From positions 1 to 64,000 of IMG/VR virus record IMGVR_UViG_3300048444_000123: a DNA stretch of 64,000 bases; one strand, given 5' to 3'. The position numbers were made by a program, and so were the translations under genes. Numbering within the stretch: the stretch's first letter is position 1; the number at the start of each line of letters is the position of its first letter. Below the pieces are notes generated by a model. That model was not told the DNA's origin, made no database searches, and was given only the letters and a program-made list of their open reading frames with translations. The DNA is from a virus. Shown in pieces: positions 32,282 through 40,082 of the stretch.

Positions 32282-32740
32282 ATGAGATTAATATTCATAG
32301 GCATTATCATCACGTCATTACTTGGTGCTGGTGCCTATGTTTTGAAGTTACAAAAAGATAATGTAATTTTGAAAGAGAACGCAGTTAAATTAGAGTCTGC
32401 TATTACTGAACAAAAAACTTTAATAGAAAATCAGAAAAAAGATTTTGAAGAAATATTAGATGCTAACAATAAGATGAATAAGTTAGTTAATGCTTTGAAA
32501 AAAGATTTAGATGATTTAGATAAAAGATTTAATAAAAAAAATAGAGACGTTGGCAAACTTGCAATTGCTAAAACGAAGTCTATTGAACGAATAACAAACG
32601 GTGCGTCAGCACTTGCTACAAGATGTATTGAGATCGCAAGTGGATCACCTCTAACTGAGGAAGAAAAAAATGCTACGAAGAAGTCGGAAATTAACACTGA
32701 ATGTCCTTCAATTAGTAATCCTAACTATATTCCTTACTAG
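32282..32740 (+). CDS. Rz: Rz-like inner membrane spanin
   Basis: A 152-aa protein with the layout of i-spanins: one N-terminal transmembrane anchor (RLIFIGIIITSLLGAGAYVL), a long coiled coil (residues ~22-90), then a Cys-containing region. Its last 71 nt overlap, in another reading frame, a lipoprotein gene, the embedded-overlap arrangement typical of Rz/Rz1. Together they join inner and outer membranes to complete lysis of a Gram-negative host. Identification rests on architecture rather than close sequence match. Confidence 0.72.
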   Translation: MRLIFIGIIITSLLGAGAYVLKLQKDNVILKENAVKLESAITEQKTLIENQKKDFEEILDANNKMNKLVNALKKDLDDLDKRFNKKNRDVGKLAIAKTKSIERITNGASALATRCIEIASGSPLTEEEKNATKKSEINTECPSISNPNYIPY

Positions 32741-33041
32741 TTGTAGTGGAGTAAAACAGTTAAGTATATTTAAAGAAGAAGTACCAAGGGCAAAACTTAA
32801 TTTAGAAAAACCCACACCATTAGAATTAGAAAACTTAAAATGGATTATTATAACATCTGAAAATGCCGAAGAAGTATTTAAGAAGTTAGAAGAACAAGGC
32901 ATAGACCCGGTTTTGTGGGGTTTAACTGATAAAGACTTTGAACTATTGGCAAAAAACTTTGCTCAAATAAGAAATCAATTAAAAATTACAAATGACTTAC
33001 TAGATAAGTATAAAGAATATTACGAAGAAGAGGACGCATAA
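32670..33041 (+). CDS. Rz1: Rz1-like outer membrane lipoprotein spanin
   Basis: A 123-aa lipoprotein: hydrophobic signal VILTIFLTSC with a lipobox L-T-S-C (Cys at ~25), followed by a short linker and a helical domain (NAEEVFKKLEEQGID, FELLAKNFAQIRNQL). It starts inside the Rz-like gene in a different frame. It is larger than phage lambda Rz1 but similar to the longer o-spanins of other phages. An alternative is an unrelated small envelope lipoprotein. Confidence 0.68.
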   Translation: MLRRSRKLTLNVLQLVILTIFLTSCSGVKQLSIFKEEVPRAKLNLEKPTPLELENLKWIIITSENAEEVFKKLEEQGIDPVLWGLTDKDFELLAKNFAQIRNQLKITNDLLDKYKEYYEEEDA

Positions 33042-33322
33042 TGGAATTATTTTTTGATATACTAGTTAAGTTTGGATTACCTGTAGCAGCTGCAAGTGTT
33101 ATGGGAATGTTTATCTATATAATTTTAAAATACATTTTAGGTGGTGTAGTTGGATCAGTAAAAGGATTGCACGGCATAATTATGGGTTTAGAAAATAGAG
33201 TTGAGACTATGAACAATGATCTAATACATATTGATACGTTACTTTCAGCTGCTTTACATTTAAGACCAGACTTAGATAGAATTGCCAGATCAGATGGTAA
33301 GAATGATGCTAGGAAAGATTAA
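33041..33322 (+). CDS. Small membrane protein, holin candidate A
   Basis: A 93-aa protein with one hydrophobic segment (residues ~10-37, GLPVAAASVMGMFIYIILKYI) and a C-terminal helical region (NRVETMNNDLIHIDTLL). It is paralogous to the next gene: both have K/Q-x-G-x-x-x-V-A-A at the membrane segment and N-D-L-I-x-I in the helix. Immediately downstream of the spanins, so a holin or antiholin is a fair guess. TAATG overlaps with both neighbours. Confidence 0.65.
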   Translation: MELFFDILVKFGLPVAAASVMGMFIYIILKYILGGVVGSVKGLHGIIMGLENRVETMNNDLIHIDTLLSAALHLRPDLDRIARSDGKNDARKD

Positions 33323-33576
33323 TGAACATATTACAAATACTTGAACAATATGGATTTGCAACTGTGGCCGCTATTGCCATGGGTTGGTTTATCTGGTTCA
33401 TCTATACATACATCACACAGGAAATTACATCTAAGTTGGCAGAGGCAAACAAGGCACTTATTGTTCTCCTAGACAAAATCAGACGACTAGATAACGATTT
33501 AATACGAATAAAGACTAAATTGAACACAGTATTAACCCTCCGAGAAGAAGAAAAAAGAAACAAAAAGAATAGATAA
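33322..33576 (+). CDS. Small membrane protein, holin candidate B
   Basis: An 84-aa paralogue of the preceding protein: GFATVAAIAMGWFIWFIYTYI as the membrane segment, then ANKALIVLLDKIRRLDNDLIRIKTKLNTVL. Similar proteins are common in marine T4-type phages. A tandem pair of related membrane proteins next to Rz/Rz1 could be holin and antiholin, but this is inference. It ends just before the late box that drives the curli cluster. Confidence 0.65.
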   Translation: MNILQILEQYGFATVAAIAMGWFIWFIYTYITQEITSKLAEANKALIVLLDKIRRLDNDLIRIKTKLNTVLTLREEEKRNKKNR

Positions 33577-33584
33577 TATAAATA
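33577..33584 (+). promoter_or_regulatory. T4-like late promoter box for the curli cluster
   Basis: Exact TATAAATA ending 6 nt before the csgF ATG at 33590; late and probably leaderless expression is predicted. Confidence 0.7.
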
Positions 33585-33589
33585 TAAGT

Positions 33590-34078
33590 ATGAAAACATC
33601 AATGAAAAAATTGATGTTAGTAGTGGGACTTATATCATTCACATCGATTACATCAATTCTAGCATCAGAATTAGTACATAATTTTAAGAATCCTGCCTTT
33701 AGTGGTAATGGATATTCTTCACATGTATTGTCTATCAATCAACTTGAAGTGCAAAGAGAGAAACAAGTTATTGATGACAGAAAATCAGCACAAGCATCTG
33801 CTGAAAGATTAGAAAAAAACAAGACGGTAAATAAATTTATCGCCAATGTTGAAAGTAGAATTTATGCCAACTTATCAAAACAGTTAGTTGATAATATGTT
33901 TGGTGAAAGTTGTGATAGTAGTACCACAACTTGTCCTACATCTGGTAATGCAGATATAGAAGGTGCTCAAATTTATTGGGTAAAAGATACTACAACTGAA
34001 ATAATTACATTAACAATTACAGCTGATGACGGAACAGTTACAACGATGGCAGTTCCAATAGGTGATTTTCAATTTTAG
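33590..34078 (+). CDS. csgF: CsgF-like curli assembly protein
   Basis: A 162-aa exported protein: signal peptide (residues ~1-26, ending ILASE), then LVHNFKNPAFSGNGYSSHVLSI, the conserved start of mature CsgF that inserts in the CsgG pore. It is followed by a helix with Q-x-E-V-Q-R and a C-terminal beta part. In bacteria CsgF sits at the outside of the CsgG channel and helps nucleate curli fibres. csgG follows 9 nt later. It has no ribosome site upstream; the late box ends 6 nt before ATG 33590, and a second in-frame ATG is at 33602. Confidence 0.85.
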   Translation: MKTSMKKLMLVVGLISFTSITSILASELVHNFKNPAFSGNGYSSHVLSINQLEVQREKQVIDDRKSAQASAERLEKNKTVNKFIANVESRIYANLSKQLVDNMFGESCDSSTTTCPTSGNADIEGAQIYWVKDTTTEIITLTITADDGTVTTMAVPIGDFQF

Positions 34079-34087
34079 GATATTATA

Positions 34088-34927
34088 ATGATAAAAATAT
34101 TAATGACTATAGTTATGACGTTTGCCTTGATTGGATGTCAAACAACTAAAGATATTGAAATATACAAAAATAAAGGACCATCTATACAAGTATCAACTAC
34201 TAAACAAAAGTTGAAGGCATTGCCTGATTTAGATGGACAACCTATTATAACAATAGCTGTTTACAGATTTACAGACCAAACAGGTCAGAGAAAACCTAGT
34301 ACAAAGTTTTCTCAACTATCAACTGCTGTCACACAAGGTGGTAGTATGTTTGTTGTGGATGCTTTAAAATCAGTTTCAGGTGGAGATTGGTTTCAAGTAT
34401 TAGAGAGAGAAGGATTAGACAATCTAATCAAAGAAAGACAGTTGATTAGATCAACTAGAACAGAATATGATGGTGAACAACAGGTTGGAAATATTTTAAA
34501 ACCTTTAGTGTTCGCTGGACTTCTAATGGAAGGATCCGTTGTAGGGTACGATAGTAATATACAATCGGGTGGACAAGGTGCGAGATATTTAGGTATTGGT
34601 TTAAGTGAACAGTATAGAGTAGATCAAGTAACAGTATCTATAAGACTTGTATCAGTTCAATCAGGTGAAATATTATTAACCTCAAATGTGACTAAAACTA
34701 TTGCTAGTCATTCAAAAGGTGGTGATGTATTTACATTCTTAGATATGAATACAAAAGCAATAGAGATAGAACGTGGCGTCGCTGCTAATGAACCAGTAAC
34801 ATACGCAGTAAGAAGTGCTATAGAATATGCCGTGCTAGATATAATTATGTGTGGTAAAGAAAAAGGATACTGGAAGTTTAAAGAAGAAAAAGAAAAAGGA
34901 TTACACGAAAATGAAAACAATAATTAG
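34088..34927 (+). CDS. csgG: CsgG-like outer membrane curli secretion channel
   Basis: A 279-aa lipoprotein: signal with lipobox L-I-G-C (Cys ~18), then the CsgG core with IITIAVYRFTDQTGQRKPS, the WFQVLEREGLDNLIKERQ segment, LLMEGSVVGYDSNIQSGG and the transmembrane-hairpin region VTVSIRLVSVQSGEILLTSNVTKTI. Nine CsgG subunits form the pore that exports curlin. The length matches bacterial CsgG (277 aa in E. coli). It overlaps the curlin gene by 17 nt. No csgE is seen, so export would use host or no accessory factor. An alternative use as a lysis or efflux pore has to be considered in a phage. Confidence 0.9.
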   Translation: MIKILMTIVMTFALIGCQTTKDIEIYKNKGPSIQVSTTKQKLKALPDLDGQPIITIAVYRFTDQTGQRKPSTKFSQLSTAVTQGGSMFVVDALKSVSGGDWFQVLEREGLDNLIKERQLIRSTRTEYDGEQQVGNILKPLVFAGLLMEGSVVGYDSNIQSGGQGARYLGIGLSEQYRVDQVTVSIRLVSVQSGEILLTSNVTKTIASHSKGGDVFTFLDMNTKAIEIERGVAANEPVTYAVRSAIEYAVLDIIMCGKEKGYWKFKEEKEKGLHENENNN

Positions 34928-35594
34928 TGTTATAATGTTCTTATTGATGTCAACTATGTTATGTGCCAATGACATATATGTCACTCAATCAGGTGCAAAC
35001 CTTGATTTAGATATAACGCAAGATGGATCAAACAACACAGTTGGTAACTCCACAACAGCTTCTGCTTCAAGTGGTGCAACCACTGTATTGAATATTGATC
35101 AAGTTGGTAACTCAAACGTAATTAAATATCAAATTAACGGTGCCACATACACAGGTACTATTAATTTAACAGGTAACTCAAATGATGTTGATTTAAATTG
35201 TGATAGTACAAGTGGTAATAGTTCTTGTGGAACTGTAACTGCTTCTATTACAATGACAGGAAATTCAAGTGATATAGACCTAGATATAGGGCAAACTAGT
35301 GATGCTTCAAACTCAACTGTATCTATAACTGGAGCATCTGGTTCAGATTCAAACACTATAGCTGCAACAGTTGACGGAACAAGTGCTATTCTAACTTTAT
35401 CAGTTAATGGTGATACAAACAACTATTTAATTGATATTGATGGTAATGGTGATGTTAATGGTCATACATTGATACATACACACACTGGTTCAATTGCTGA
35501 CGTTGACATAATACAATCAGGTGTTAATGACAATATGATCACTTTAACGACAAGTGGAGATAATGCAGATATCGACATATCGCAAACGGACTAA
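34911..35594 (+). CDS. Curlin-repeat protein 1 (CsgA/B-like)
   Basis: A 227-aa secreted protein. The open frame runs from 34851, but the signal peptide MKTIISVIMFLLMSTMLCAN begins at ATG 34911, which overlaps the end of csgG. The mature part is Asn/Asp/Ser/Thr/Gly-rich with degenerate curlin repeats of the form I-x-V/I-x-Q-x-G-x-x-N: IYVTQSGANLDLDITQDGSNN at the start, LNIDQVGNSN, then VDIIQSGVND and IDISQTD at the end. Its repeats fit an amyloid beta-solenoid exported by CsgG/F. It lacks the regular five repeats of E. coli CsgA, and the middle repeats have lost most Gln. Confidence 0.82.
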   Translation: MKTIISVIMFLLMSTMLCANDIYVTQSGANLDLDITQDGSNNTVGNSTTASASSGATTVLNIDQVGNSNVIKYQINGATYTGTINLTGNSNDVDLNCDSTSGNSSCGTVTASITMTGNSSDIDLDIGQTSDASNSTVSITGASGSDSNTIAATVDGTSAILTLSVNGDTNNYLIDIDGNGDVNGHTLIHTHTGSIADVDIIQSGVNDNMITLTTSGDNADIDISQTD

Positions 35595-35600
35595 ATCACA

Positions 35601-35702
35601 ATGATAACATTATTACTATTTACAGGATTAATAATATATGCGTGTTACAAGTTTTATAATTGGGTGCATACTCATAACCCTTACGACTTTAGCAACAAAT
35701 AG
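35601..35702 (+). CDS. Possible 33-aa membrane micro-protein
   Basis: A short frame between curlin 1 and the FecR-like gene: MITLLLFTGLIIYACYKFYN, one hydrophobic helix, then a polar tail. It overlaps the FecR-like start by 65 nt in another frame. There is no strong ribosome site, so it may be chance. Confidence 0.25.
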   Translation: MITLLLFTGLIIYACYKFYNWVHTHNPYDFSNK

Positions 35703-36750
35703 TCTTGCTTCTATCGGTGAAGTAACCTTACACACAGGAAATGCTGTTATCGATAGACAAGATGGATCTAAAGATATTGAGGTAAAGAAAGAGCTTGATG
35801 TTCTTTCATATGATACAGTTAAGACAGGACAAGGTAGAGTCGGTATAGAATTTATTGACGAAACCAGAGTTGATGTCACTGAGCATAGTAAATTGTTGAT
35901 TGATGATTTTGTCTATGATCCAAATACAAAGACTGGTGCATTATCATTAAAGGCCTCTTTAGGTACAGTTAGATATGCCTCAGGTCAAATTGCAAAAAAC
36001 TCAAAACAAAATGTAAAGATCAGTACCCCCACAGCTACAATTGCTGTAAGGGGAACTGATTTTGCTATGACCATAAATGAGATAGGTGGATCCACTATTG
36101 TATTATTACCTAGTTGCAATAATGAAGGATTTTGTTATGTGGGTGAAATTGAAGTTATAACAGACGCTGGTTTTGTAATTATGAATCAAGCATTTCAAGT
36201 AACTCAAGTTGATACAATGGAATCAAAACCTTTAAAACCTGTATTGCTAGATTTAGATTTAGATATGATTAATAATTTATTGATCATAACACCCCCTAAG
36301 AAACTTGACGAGGCAATAACTGAACAAAAAGCAAAATCAATTGCAAACGCATTAGATTTAGACTTCTTAAAGTTTGATGATTTAGAAGTAGATTTGCTAG
36401 AAATTGAAGAAGAAGAATTTACAGGACTTGATGTTGATTTTTTAGATCAGAATTTTTTAGTTGATATATTAGAACAGTTAAATAGACAACTTGCCTTACA
36501 AATGAGAAGTGAGTTTGATAAAGGTAAAGATAAAAGAAAAACAGGTAAAGATGAATTTGGTGTTATACTTCTAATAGAAGAACCTCAATGGGTGTGGATG
36601 AGAACAGACTCATCTGAAAACAATATAGTATTACGACTAGACCAAGAGTATAGTTATAATATAAATGTTATACAAGGTGATACAGAAATTATAGATTATG
36701 AATTGGGCGATAGTCCAACAAATCAAATAAGAATATATCAAAATCAATAA
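35638..36750 (+). CDS. Secreted FecR-domain protein
   Basis: The 370-aa protein has a signal peptide (residues ~1-24). It continues with a FecR domain at ~25-190: GEVTLHTGNAVIDRQ, a V-x-T-G-Q-G-R-V-G-I-E-F strand pair, FGT-like ASLGTVRYASGQIA and the IAVRGTDFAM core. The remaining half is acidic (DLDLDMINN, DDLEVDLLEIEEEEFTGLDVDF). FecR domains sit in the periplasm, and in many proteobacteria such proteins occur beside CHASE2-cyclase genes as here. A role as partner or ligand of the cyclase sensor, or as a surface scaffold for curlin, is inferred from this pairing. A one-base overlap links it to the next gene. Confidence 0.82.
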   Translation: MRVTSFIIGCILITLTTLATNSLASIGEVTLHTGNAVIDRQDGSKDIEVKKELDVLSYDTVKTGQGRVGIEFIDETRVDVTEHSKLLIDDFVYDPNTKTGALSLKASLGTVRYASGQIAKNSKQNVKISTPTATIAVRGTDFAMTINEIGGSTIVLLPSCNNEGFCYVGEIEVITDAGFVIMNQAFQVTQVDTMESKPLKPVLLDLDLDMINNLLIITPPKKLDEAITEQKAKSIANALDLDFLKFDDLEVDLLEIEEEEFTGLDVDFLDQNFLVDILEQLNRQLALQMRSEFDKGKDKRKTGKDEFGVILLIEEPQWVWMRTDSSENNIVLRLDQEYSYNINVIQGDTEIIDYELGDSPTNQIRIYQNQ

Positions 36751-38150
36751 TGTATAAATTTTTAAAAAGATTTACAATTTTTCTATTCATATGGATGGTG
36801 TTTTTTTCTATTATAGATAAGTTGAAAGCAGACACGGCCCATATAAATTACGTGTCCGGTACAAGTGACCACTACACACAATTGAAAAGTGAACTAGAAG
36901 ATTTAGGTTACACAGTCACAAGTACAAATAGTGGTAGTGTAACTCTATCAGATTTTAGTAGCAAAGATTTACATATCAATATTGCAGGTGATTCAAACTG
37001 TGGTAACAGTTGTAAGACGGCATATGAAACTTATATTGGTAATGGTGGTAATGTTATAATTGCAGGTAATGGTGTTTATAATAGTAATAGAACAAGTAGT
37101 ATTGAAGGATTGATAGAAAGTAAATTAAGTGTGGGTACAATTACAATACACCCATATAACGCAAACTATAGCTCTAATGCAAATGGTTCATATTCAGGTG
37201 ACGCAACATCAGGATATTGGCTTACAAGAAACTTATTTACTATGCAATCAGGTGGTACTGCTATAGCCACCAACAGTCCAGGTGGTTCCACCTACAAGTC
37301 ATGGGCAAAATATGACTATGGCAGTAATGGTGGCCAACTATTTGTTACCTTTGATCAATCACAATTTAAAAATTCTGTTAGTACCTGGATGACCAGATTT
37401 TATGCCTTTCTACAACAGACATTGGAGAACGAAGGCATATTAGTAACAACAACATTATCTGGCATAACTTCAAATCAAACAACAGAGTTTAATACATTTA
37501 GAAACAAGTCAGTGAACGGCAACCAGATATACGTCACACAAACAGGTGATAACAACACTTTGAATATAACACAAGACGGTGATGACAACCTGATCATCGG
37601 TACAGACTTAACATCATCTGCTGTAATAAACGGAGATAACAATGCTTTAGATTTAGATCAGATTGGTAATGATAATGTTTTGGGAATAGATATAGTAGGT
37701 TCTTCAAACAACGTAGCAGTTACACAAAACCAAGATCAAAGGGCAAAATTAGACTTAACAGGTTCATCAAACAATGTAGATTTAGATCAATCAGCAATTA
37801 ACTATATTGGTGAACACTATATGTCAGTAGTTATAAATGGCAATAGTAATAATGTTGATATAGATCAAACTGAAACAGGAAATAAAAAGGCATTTATAGA
37901 CATAGATGGTTCTAACAACTTGGCCTTAGATCAAAAAGGAACAGGTGATCACTATGCAGAAATAACACTAACTGATAGTCATAACGTAGATGTAACACAA
38001 GACGGAAGTGGTGATCATAATGCAACTATTAATTTAAGTGGTAATACTTCTAGTGTAACATTGACGCAAGATAGTAGTACCTCACAGAATTATTACTTAT
38101 ATCAAAATTGTACTCAATCAAGTTGCTCGGCAACTGTCACACAAAACTAA
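36750..38150 (+). CDS. Curlin-repeat protein 2 with N-terminal globular domain
   Basis: A 466-aa exported protein: signal anchor (~1-29), then a globular domain of about 220 residues starting DTAHINYVSGTSDHYTQLK. That domain resembles a Rossmann/GATase1-like fold (separate LHINIAGDSN, GGNVIIAGNG and QLFVTFDQSQF strands). From residue ~253 to the end there are at least eight curlin-type repeats: IYVTQTGDNN, LNITQDGDDN, LDLDQIGNDN, VAVTQNQDQ, VDLDQSAIN, VDIDQTETGN, LALDQKGTGD, VDVTQDGSGD. It probably forms amyloid and carries its first domain on the fibre, perhaps to bind a target. Such a fusion is unlike E. coli CsgA/B. Confidence 0.78.
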   Translation: MYKFLKRFTIFLFIWMVFFSIIDKLKADTAHINYVSGTSDHYTQLKSELEDLGYTVTSTNSGSVTLSDFSSKDLHINIAGDSNCGNSCKTAYETYIGNGGNVIIAGNGVYNSNRTSSIEGLIESKLSVGTITIHPYNANYSSNANGSYSGDATSGYWLTRNLFTMQSGGTAIATNSPGGSTYKSWAKYDYGSNGGQLFVTFDQSQFKNSVSTWMTRFYAFLQQTLENEGILVTTTLSGITSNQTTEFNTFRNKSVNGNQIYVTQTGDNNTLNITQDGDDNLIIGTDLTSSAVINGDNNALDLDQIGNDNVLGIDIVGSSNNVAVTQNQDQRAKLDLTGSSNNVDLDQSAINYIGEHYMSVVINGNSNNVDIDQTETGNKKAFIDIDGSNNLALDQKGTGDHYAEITLTDSHNVDVTQDGSGDHNATINLSGNTSSVTLTQDSSTSQNYYLYQNCTQSSCSATVTQN

Positions 38151-38156: not shown

Positions 38157-40082
38157 ATGATGAAGAAGATATTAACTCATTGGACAATCTCATTTCTTAC
38201 TCTATTCATTGTTACATACATTGGATTAAAAGACCCTCAAATAAAAGAAGTATTAAGATTAAAGGGATTTGATCTATTAATTCAATCAGAAAAAAAAGAA
38301 ATTTCAAAAGACATACACGTTGTTAGTATAGATGAAAAGGCCATAGAGAAGTATGGACAGTGGCCTTGGAAAAGAGACGTACTAGCAGACGTAGTAAATC
38401 AATTAAGAGAAAAAGGTGCTGGTATAATAGTCATACCTATACTATTTTCAGAGTATGATAGACTAGGTGGTGATGAAACATTTATCAATACAATACATCA
38501 AAATGGTGTAGTCATAGCACAAACAGGAACAAATCAAACAAATAGAAACGCTGTGCCAAGAGGTGTTGCAAAAATAGGTGATCCGTTACCTTGGTTATTT
38601 GAATGGAATGGTATGTTAGGTCCTGTAAAAGAATTTGGTGATTATGCAGATGGTGTGGGTGTAACAAATACAGCACCTGAAGTTGATGGAGTTGTAAGAA
38701 GAATACCTTTACTTATGAAAATAGGTGAAGATGTATATCCTGCTATGGCAATAGAAGTTATAAGAGTTTCAACAGGTGCACCAAGTTATCAAGTTAAGGC
38801 AGGACAAGGTGGTATTATTGCCATGAGAGTGCCTGGATATAAAACAATCAAAACAGACGCAAATGCTCGTATCTGGTTAAGATGGAACAAATCATACTAC
38901 ACAACATCAATTGCAGATTTAGAAACTGAAGAATTAAGATTAGAGGGTAAAACAGTTATTATAGGAATGAATGCTGAGGGATTAGGAAATATTATTGCAA
39001 CTCCTGTAGGTGAGAGATATGCTTATGAATTAACTGCCTCAACTCTATCAACTGTACTAGATGGAAAAAATATAGAAAGAGTTGATATATCTTTTATAGT
39101 AGAATTAGCAATTGCATTTATAGTTGGTTTGATAATTATAATACTTACAAGATACACATCATATTTTATTATTGCCTTTGCAATTATATTTTCAATTATA
39201 ACTTCATTAGTATATTCTAAGTTTTTATTTAATCAAAGTTTAATGTTAACAGATGTTACATGGATTATATTTACAGTTGTAGTTGTAGGATTTCATAGTG
39301 TCTTTAATAGATTTATCTTAGAGTTTAAATTAAAACAACAAATCAGAAAACAGTTTGAGAAGTATTTGGATCCTAGACAAGTTGCTATTCTTGTAAAGAA
39401 TCCTGAAAAGTTAAAACTTGGTGGTGAAAGAAAGGAAATGAGTTTCTTGTTTATGGACATTGTAGGATTCACACCTATTTCTGAACACTATAAAAACAAA
39501 GATGATCCAGAAGGATTAGTAGAAGTTATTAACGATTACTTAAATCGTATGAGTAAGATAGTATTAAAGAATGGTGGAACAATAGACAAGTATATGGGTG
39601 ATTGTATTATGGCATTTTGGAATGCACCACTTGATTGTCCTGATCATGCTGAAATGGCAGTTAAGACAGGTATAGAATGTGCTAACGAAACAGATAAAAT
39701 TAAAAAAGAATTTAGGGAGAGAGGTCTTCCTGATATCAATATAGGTTCTGGTGTAAATACAGGAACTTGTATTGTTGGTAATATGGGTAGTGAAATGAGA
39801 TTAGATTATTCAGTTATAGGCGATGCTGTAAACTTGGCGGCTAGACTTGAAGCCGCTACAAGGAACTATAAGAACAATGGCAAGGTTACACCTTTGATTT
39901 ATTCTTCATATACAAAAGAAAAACTGAAAAACATTGAGTCAATTGAACTAGATAGAATATTTGTTAAGGGTAAAGAGGAGTTAGTAACCATTTATAAACC
40001 GTCAACAAACTTAATGGAGGGTTATGACTTTACTTCAACAAAGAAAGTTACGACTAATAGTAAAAAGGATAACAAGAAATGA
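38157..40082 (+). CDS. CHASE2-domain class III adenylate/guanylate cyclase
   Basis: A 641-aa membrane sensor enzyme. One N-terminal membrane segment precedes a CHASE2 extracytoplasmic domain (~30-310: HVVSIDEKAIEKYGQWPWKRD, DGVVRRIPLLMKIG). Three transmembrane helices follow at ~315-385, then a class III cyclase catalytic domain at ~425-600. The two metal-binding Asp are present: FLFMDIVGFT near 434 and KYMGDCIMAFW near 480. GNMGSEMRLDYSVIGDAVNLAARLE carries the region with transition-state Asn and Arg. It should make cAMP or cGMP in response to a periplasmic signal. Starts at 38157 or 38160. It closes the curli cluster and overlaps a 29-aa frame (ATGA). A full-length sensor cyclase is very unusual for a phage. 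Confidence 0.88.
   Translation: MMKKILTHWTISFLTLFIVTYIGLKDPQIKEVLRLKGFDLLIQSEKKEISKDIHVVSIDEKAIEKYGQWPWKRDVLADVVNQLREKGAGIIVIPILFSEYDRLGGDETFINTIHQNGVVIAQTGTNQTNRNAVPRGVAKIGDPLPWLFEWNGMLGPVKEFGDYADGVGVTNTAPEVDGVVRRIPLLMKIGEDVYPAMAIEVIRVSTGAPSYQVKAGQGGIIAMRVPGYKTIKTDANARIWLRWNKSYYTTSIADLETEELRLEGKTVIIGMNAEGLGNIIATPVGERYAYELTASTLSTVLDGKNIERVDISFIVELAIAFIVGLIIIILTRYTSYFIIAFAIIFSIITSLVYSKFLFNQSLMLTDVTWIIFTVVVVGFHSVFNRFILEFKLKQQIRKQFEKYLDPRQVAILVKNPEKLKLGGERKEMSFLFMDIVGFTPISEHYKNKDDPEGLVEVINDYLNRMSKIVLKNGGTIDKYMGDCIMAFWNAPLDCPDHAEMAVKTGIECANETDKIKKEFRERGLPDINIGSGVNTGTCIVGNMGSEMRLDYSVIGDAVNLAARLEAATRNYKNNGKVTPLIYSSYTKEKLKNIESIELDRIFVKGKEELVTIYKPSTNLMEGYDFTSTKKVTTNSKKDNKK

Follow-up and report, generated by a model that had tools for sequence, protein, structure and literature searches.

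A module that combines T8SS (curli) genes with genes for FecR and an adenylate cyclase was previously described in pelagiphages in the searched text of Wittmers 2022 (PMC9599517). The module is located in a published hypervariable island (PMC7029224); it has been presented as a mystery and read via enterobacterial or iron-regulation analogies. As for bacterial systems, the CyaD1 cyclase of Sinorhizobium meliloti produces cAMP constitutively when its CHASE2 domain is removed (PMC5498481); therefore, CHASE2 restrains the enzyme. In a Burkholderia biofilm operon, FecR is paired with a CHASE2 kinase (PMC5192318).

The locus analyzed here belongs to the IMG/VR virus record IMGVR_UViG_3300048444_000123 (68,401 bp), and positions 1 to 64,000 of this record constitute the window, i.e., the whole stretch of DNA under analysis (64,000 nucleotides). 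The ribonucleotide reductase encoded by the record shows 82% identity with that of Pelagibacter phage Mosig and 77% identity with that of HTVC008M, and the record was therefore assigned to the T4-like pelagimyophages. Kinship with these two phages suggests that its host is SAR11, one of Earth's most abundant kinds of cell. No tRNA genes were found in the window.

Organization and linkage of the module

The gene order csgF-csgG-curlin-fecR-curlin-cyclase of the pelagiphage T8SS-FecR-AC module is present in the window, where csgF is preceded by genes of two small proteins, s1 and s2, and the cyclase gene stands last. The following features were identified:

33041..33322, + strand: small protein s1, 93 aa, resembling its neighbour s2 (phrog_18771)
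33322..33576, + strand: small protein s2, 84 aa, with one hydrophobic segment and a coiled-coil-like tail
33577..33584, + strand: TATAAATA, a T4-type late-promoter-like motif, 5 nt ahead of the csgF ATG
33590..34078, + strand: CsgF, pore-associated chaperone (Pfam, 46.6 bits)
34088..34927, + strand: CsgG, curli secretion pore (Pfam, 181 bits)
34851..35594, + strand: first curlin-like protein (Q-G-N curlin-like repeats seen by eye; no Pfam match)
35638..36750, + strand: FecR-domain protein, 370 aa (signal-like N-terminal helix; FecR domain at residues 59-153)
36750..38150, + strand: second curlin-repeat protein, 466 aa (Pfam; N-terminal domain non-curlin)
38157..40082, + strand: CHASE2-transmembrane class III nucleotide cyclase, 641 aa (ATG start, Pfam domains, AlphaFold model)

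The ORF of the first curlin-like protein begins with a GTG at 34851 and overlaps csgG; its real start probably lies internal to the ORF. The counterparts of this protein in HTVC008M and Melnitz are annotated as curlin-associated. In the second curlin protein (36750-38150), approximately 220 N-terminal non-curlin residues have no Pfam match.

Relatives of the cyclase are common in marine viral contigs, where at least 596 stretches encode them. FecR was found within 4.5 kb upstream in 33 of 34 viral cyclase loci with sufficient upstream sequence and at all 37 phage csgG loci, while the cyclase was present at 25 of 27 csgG-FecR phage loci with sufficient downstream sequence; since the loci counted were the closest ones, these figures may overstate the linkage in remote phages. 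The operon with FecR and curlin that had been proposed for the cyclase is thus real, and the linkage in phage loci is tight. HTVC008M and the Melnitz strains are the named phages in which s1, CsgG, FecR, and the cyclase co-occur; a search for the same four proteins in phage Mosig gave zero matches. The cyclase is not essential, given that two of the 27 csgG-FecR loci do without it and that the module is unmatched in Mosig. Both HTVC008M and Mosig are recorded on HTCC1062, which provides a ready comparison of phages with and without a module match. Large tail-fibre-like genes were observed at two other loci: in one, they separate FecR from the cyclase by about 6 kb (L077:1745-7617), and in the other they occupy the place where the cyclase would stand (L226:13159-16245).

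Of 83 phage csgF loci, 80 have s1, s2, or both upstream of csgF, 60 of them both. The phage records in which s1 was detected all carry the module. Neither s1 nor s2 has a Pfam match even at E 1, a kinase domain, or a known nucleotide-binding domain. In most phage csgF loci, NATAAATA occupies the same position before the csgF ATG as the motif of the window. Since motifs of the TATAAATA type show no overall excess within the window, late expression of the module is only suggested by this element; a sigma-70 promoter scan was uninformative in the AT-rich sequence of the window. Just upstream of the curli module, at 32282-33041, an ORF with an N-terminal membrane helix and a coiled coil overlaps a lipobox-bearing ORF. 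This region matches phrog_812 (Rz-like spanin) and resembles an i-spanin/o-spanin pair.

Structure, conservation, and origin of the cyclase

The cyclase ORF (38157-40082) starts with ATG and contains no internal stop codon. Pfam analysis detected CHASE2 (PF05226) at residues 21-324 with 141.8 bits (cut-off 26.3) and Guanylate_cyc (PF00211) at residues 426-611 with 67.5 bits (cut-off 21.9); the catalytic domain spans approximately residues 420-616. The original prediction of a full-length CHASE2-transmembrane class III cyclase with a periplasmic-type sensor domain was thereby borne out. It had also assumed retention of both metal-binding Asp residues and of the substrate region, which agrees with the alignment of 81 homologues (the window and phage loci): D434 and D482 are each conserved in 81/81 sequences, as is the substrate Lys K478, and the second substrate position, S552, is Ser in 79/81. 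The transition-state residues N559 and R563 are found in 79/81 and 80/81 sequences, respectively.

K478, at the purine-selecting position where class IIIb enzymes specific for ATP have Lys, aligns with Lys in the adenylyl cyclase CyaB (3r5g) and with Glu in the guanylyl cyclase Cya2 (2w01); the chimera 6fht, named adenylate cyclase in the PDB, also has Lys at this position. Because K478 matches the Lys of CyaB and not the Glu of Cya2, ATP is the predicted substrate of the enzyme. This specificity is somewhat doubtful, since position 552 is occupied by Ser, which is neither Asp nor Thr.

The AlphaFold model of the cyclase has a mean pLDDT of 89.4. Three membrane helices had been expected, whereas the model shows four: one N-terminal, before CHASE2 (residues 8-25), and three past it (312-333, 336-361, and 368-400). 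Comparison of the modeled catalytic domain with CyaB (3r5g) gave a Z-score of 26.1 and an rmsd of 1.8 A over 188 residues, and BFVD holds a full-length viral counterpart (TM 0.89). When the complete fold including CHASE2 was sought in the PDB, the matches were to the catalytic domain alone, and the CHASE2 portion was barely probed by this search.

Pairwise comparisons with six relatives gave dN/dS values of 0.04-0.10 for the catalytic domain, 0.10-0.20 for CHASE2, and 0.24-0.67 for the membrane part. Premature stops in related phages were looked for; apart from homologues truncated by a contig end, essentially every one proved to have an open frame across the catalytic domain. The cyclase is thus kept by selection, and purifying selection is strong on its catalytic domain. 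Judging from these sequence features, the protein appears to work as a cAMP-making sensor enzyme.

In a quick phylogenetic tree, the cyclases of the window and the phages formed one supported group, which also included phage-like contigs from MAGs. The sister of this group was the cyclase of a Caulobacteraceae MAG contig (L089), whose operon has the order csgF-csgG-curlin-curlin-fecR-cyclase and is flanked by a glycosyltransferase gene on one side and by a PycTM gene, followed by an S9 peptidase gene, on the other. Small membrane/coiled-coil genes of the s1/s2 type (33041-33576 in the window) are missing from this operon. The PycTM gene (L089:8491-9084, + strand; PF18967, 87.6 bits) lies 440 bp beyond the CHASE2 cyclase of this curli operon and may encode a receptor for that cyclase. 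Curli are rare in the class: CsgF scored above the cut-off in 6 of 385 alphaproteobacterial genomes, and inspection of five other csgF regions with phage-derived models found no adjacent FecR or cyclase.

The tree and the sister operon suggest that the phage lineage acquired the curli-secretion/FecR/CHASE2-cyclase operon from an alphaproteobacterium, with a single origin, in agreement with the searched text of Wittmers 2022 (PMC9599517). SAR11 was rejected as the donor of the cyclase, the class III domain being present in 0/147 Pelagibacterales genomes. Several apparent bacterial relatives were also set aside. All four are likely phage contigs binned into MAGs: L085 and L086 fall within the phage clade, and in L087 and L090 csgF is preceded by the small genes specific to phages; L090 additionally has phage-like neighbour genes. 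Matches filed under Acinetobacter 'phage MD-2021a' were not accepted as phage, since they resemble a bacterial chromosome with mfd and hscA nearby. The locus L084 (CAKLQH020000011.1), filed as Acinetobacter phage, contains mfd, hscA, and hscB and is probably part of a bacterial chromosome.

FecR, candidate cAMP receptors, and the proposed mechanism

The phage FecR consists of a leading hydrophobic helix followed by the PF04773 domain, its sole Pfam domain. Pfam analysis found no cytoplasmic N-terminal anti-sigma domain in it, and no sigma factor was found among the neighbouring genes scanned around fecR. Its fold is nearest to the PupR periplasmic signalling domain (6ovk, E 3.7e-4), the pLDDT of the model being only 67. 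In 106 alphaproteobacterial genomes containing 109 CHASE2 genes, FecR lies within 5 kb of 38 of these genes, compared with 0.95 expected (about 40 times chance), and several pairs are separated by 250 bp or less. On the grounds of these neighbour statistics, the Burkholderia operon, the behaviour of CyaD1, and the lack of an anti-sigma part, FecR is probably the periplasmic partner of the CHASE2 sensor and not an iron regulator. It is the best candidate for the messenger to CHASE2. In one genome of the Pelagibacterales order (G108:C1:324111-327853), which has no class III cyclase, FecR lies 2.4 kb from a CHASE2 protein read in a frame of 683 aa, i.e., the same pairing with a different output.

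As for the reader of cAMP, the host survey comprised 147 genomes of an order identified as Pelagibacterales by the SAM-V riboswitch and a 16S probe sequence, which we take to be the SAR11 probe and which was exact in 75 of the 147 genomes. No class III cyclase was detected in these genomes. Matches to the cNMP-binding domain were found in 10/147 genomes; they were weak (27.7-29.2 bits), were not to CRP, and nearly all lay in an 870-aa frame with two cNMP-like domains followed by parts that look acyltransferase- or esterase-like by eye. The sole cNMP-binding candidate seen in the order is this 870-aa protein (L178:919-3264, + strand). The domain was absent from HTVC008M (147 kb), Melnitz (141 kb), a 152-kb relative, and the window record. 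The reader of cAMP therefore does not appear to be of the CRP type.

Taken together, the domains, the conserved active site, purifying selection, synteny, a single origin with a sister operon in a bacterium, and the absence of recognised receptors in the genomes surveyed point, with somewhat better than even probability, to a membrane-bound, catalytically competent receptor adenylate cyclase that was acquired along with an alphaproteobacterial curli/FecR operon and relays a late FecR signal into cAMP. Late in infection, the phage would express CsgF, CsgG, curlin-like subunits, and FecR, and FecR, curlin, and the CsgG/CsgF pore would be exported. The secreted FecR may then report the state of the periplasm, or assembly of CsgG and curlin, to CHASE2. 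The resulting change in CHASE2 would pass via the membrane helices to a presumably dimeric catalytic domain, which would make cAMP, probably from ATP, in a host that itself lacks class III cyclases. That the sensed event is surface assembly is a plausible inference. A tentative extension, which we regard as possible and on balance rather unlikely, is that FecR, the CHASE2 receptor, cAMP, and an unrecognised receptor form a complete private second-messenger branch in a streamlined host, by which the phage would tie the timing of late infection to curli assembly. The proposal replaces the enterobacterial and iron-regulation analogies with FecR as the partner of CHASE2 and cAMP orthogonal to the host, and it is testable.

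The main conservative rival is that the cyclase is an active passenger, inherited with the curli module and devoid of a signalling role in the present host. The module is unmatched in Mosig and sits in a hypervariable island (PMC7029224), and the phages and Pelagibacterales surveyed lack a recognised receptor, all of which would suit a passenger. However, a passenger gene in a phage genome should decay, whereas purifying selection acts strongly on the catalytic domain and the frames are unbroken down to 48% identity; selection argues against this reading, which we consider unlikely. A similarly low probability is given to the suggestion that the reader of cAMP is a protein not yet recognised and probably encoded by the phage, or that the cyclase works mainly at the membrane, timing secretion or lysis via partners such as s1/s2. 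The near-constant position of s1 and/or s2 before csgF (80/83 loci, both in 60), the restriction of s1 to module-carrying phage records, and the spanin-like gene just upstream in the window are consistent with it, but s1 and s2 contain no known nucleotide-binding domain and do not occur in the sister operon of the Caulobacteraceae MAG, and the suggestion is pure inference.

In proteobacteria, cAMP normally acts via CRP, and it had been predicted that the cyclase product feeds CAP-like regulation of phage late genes or lysis. The searched text of Wittmers 2022 (PMC9599517) likewise used the enterobacterial cAMP-CsgD route by analogy. The essentially negative cNMP surveys leave such regulation with no receptor on either the phage side (HTVC008M, Melnitz, the 152-kb phage, and the window record) or the Pelagibacterales side, where nearly all of the ten weak matches represent one kind of 870-aa protein; the prediction is thus not upheld and appears very improbable. 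Equally little weight can be placed on a Pycsar-like role, in which the product would counter host immunity or be a toxic or decoy nucleotide and not a regulator, and which we rank lowest. PycC models of PADLOC match the cyclase with up to 81.6 bits, and a PycTM effector gene follows the sister cyclase of the Caulobacteraceae MAG at 440 bp. However, the PycC matches reflect the class III domain alone, which is generic; the site, including Lys478, looks like that of adenylate cyclases; and this PycTM is the only such neighbour among about 75 bacterial loci. PycTM was found in 0/147 Pelagibacterales genomes and in none of HTVC008M, Melnitz, and the 152-kb relative. Since the match is generic and there is no paired effector in the phages or Pelagibacterales surveyed, membership of the cyclase in Pycsar was rejected. 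The FecR-driven receptor cyclase outlined above is the preferred explanation.

Comparison with known systems

Pycsar PycC likewise has a class III catalytic domain; the phage cyclase differs in its adenylate-type Lys and in having no paired effector in the phage or host. FecR/FecI iron-citrate signalling relies on an anti-sigma domain and a sigma partner, neither of which was found for the phage FecR. The catalytic folds of CyaB of Pseudomonas aeruginosa (3r5g) and CyaC of Spirulina (1wc1) are like that of the phage cyclase, and CyaB also shares its Lys/Asn/Arg active-site pattern. CyaB has Thr at the second substrate position, whereas the phage enzyme has Ser, and both structures represent catalytic domains without the CHASE2 domain that the phage cyclase possesses.

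CyaD1 of S. meliloti (PMC5498481) also joins a CHASE2 sensor to a class III cyclase. In that bacterium, cAMP acts on Clr, a CRP-family protein, whereas such a receptor was not found for the phage cyclase. The BiofilmReg system of Burkholderia (PMC5192318) similarly places a secreted FecR-domain protein beside a CHASE2 membrane sensor in a surface/biofilm context, but its output is a kinase and a response regulator and not a cyclase, and its FecR carries LysM.

The closest systems are the modules of HTVC008M and Melnitz, which have the same gene order; the window cyclase is 67% identical to that of HTVC008M and 48% to that of Melnitz. The HTVC008M copy (AGE60353.1) is already annotated as a cyclase, and together with Wittmers 2022 (PMC9599517) it precedes the original prediction, which had regarded a phage cyclase as new. 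The searched text of that work gives the module an alphaproteobacterial affinity, as found here for the window module. It treats FecR as an iron-dependent regulator, whereas we propose that FecR is a partner of CHASE2, a domain that the searched text does not mention. In podoviruses, according to the same text, csgF is preceded by a histidine kinase, whereas the myophage of the window has proteins of 84-93 aa without a kinase domain at this place. Relative to the searched text of Wittmers 2022, the additions made here are the identification of CHASE2, the FecR-CHASE2 statistics, the survey of hosts and phages for receptors, and the small membrane genes that constantly accompany the module.
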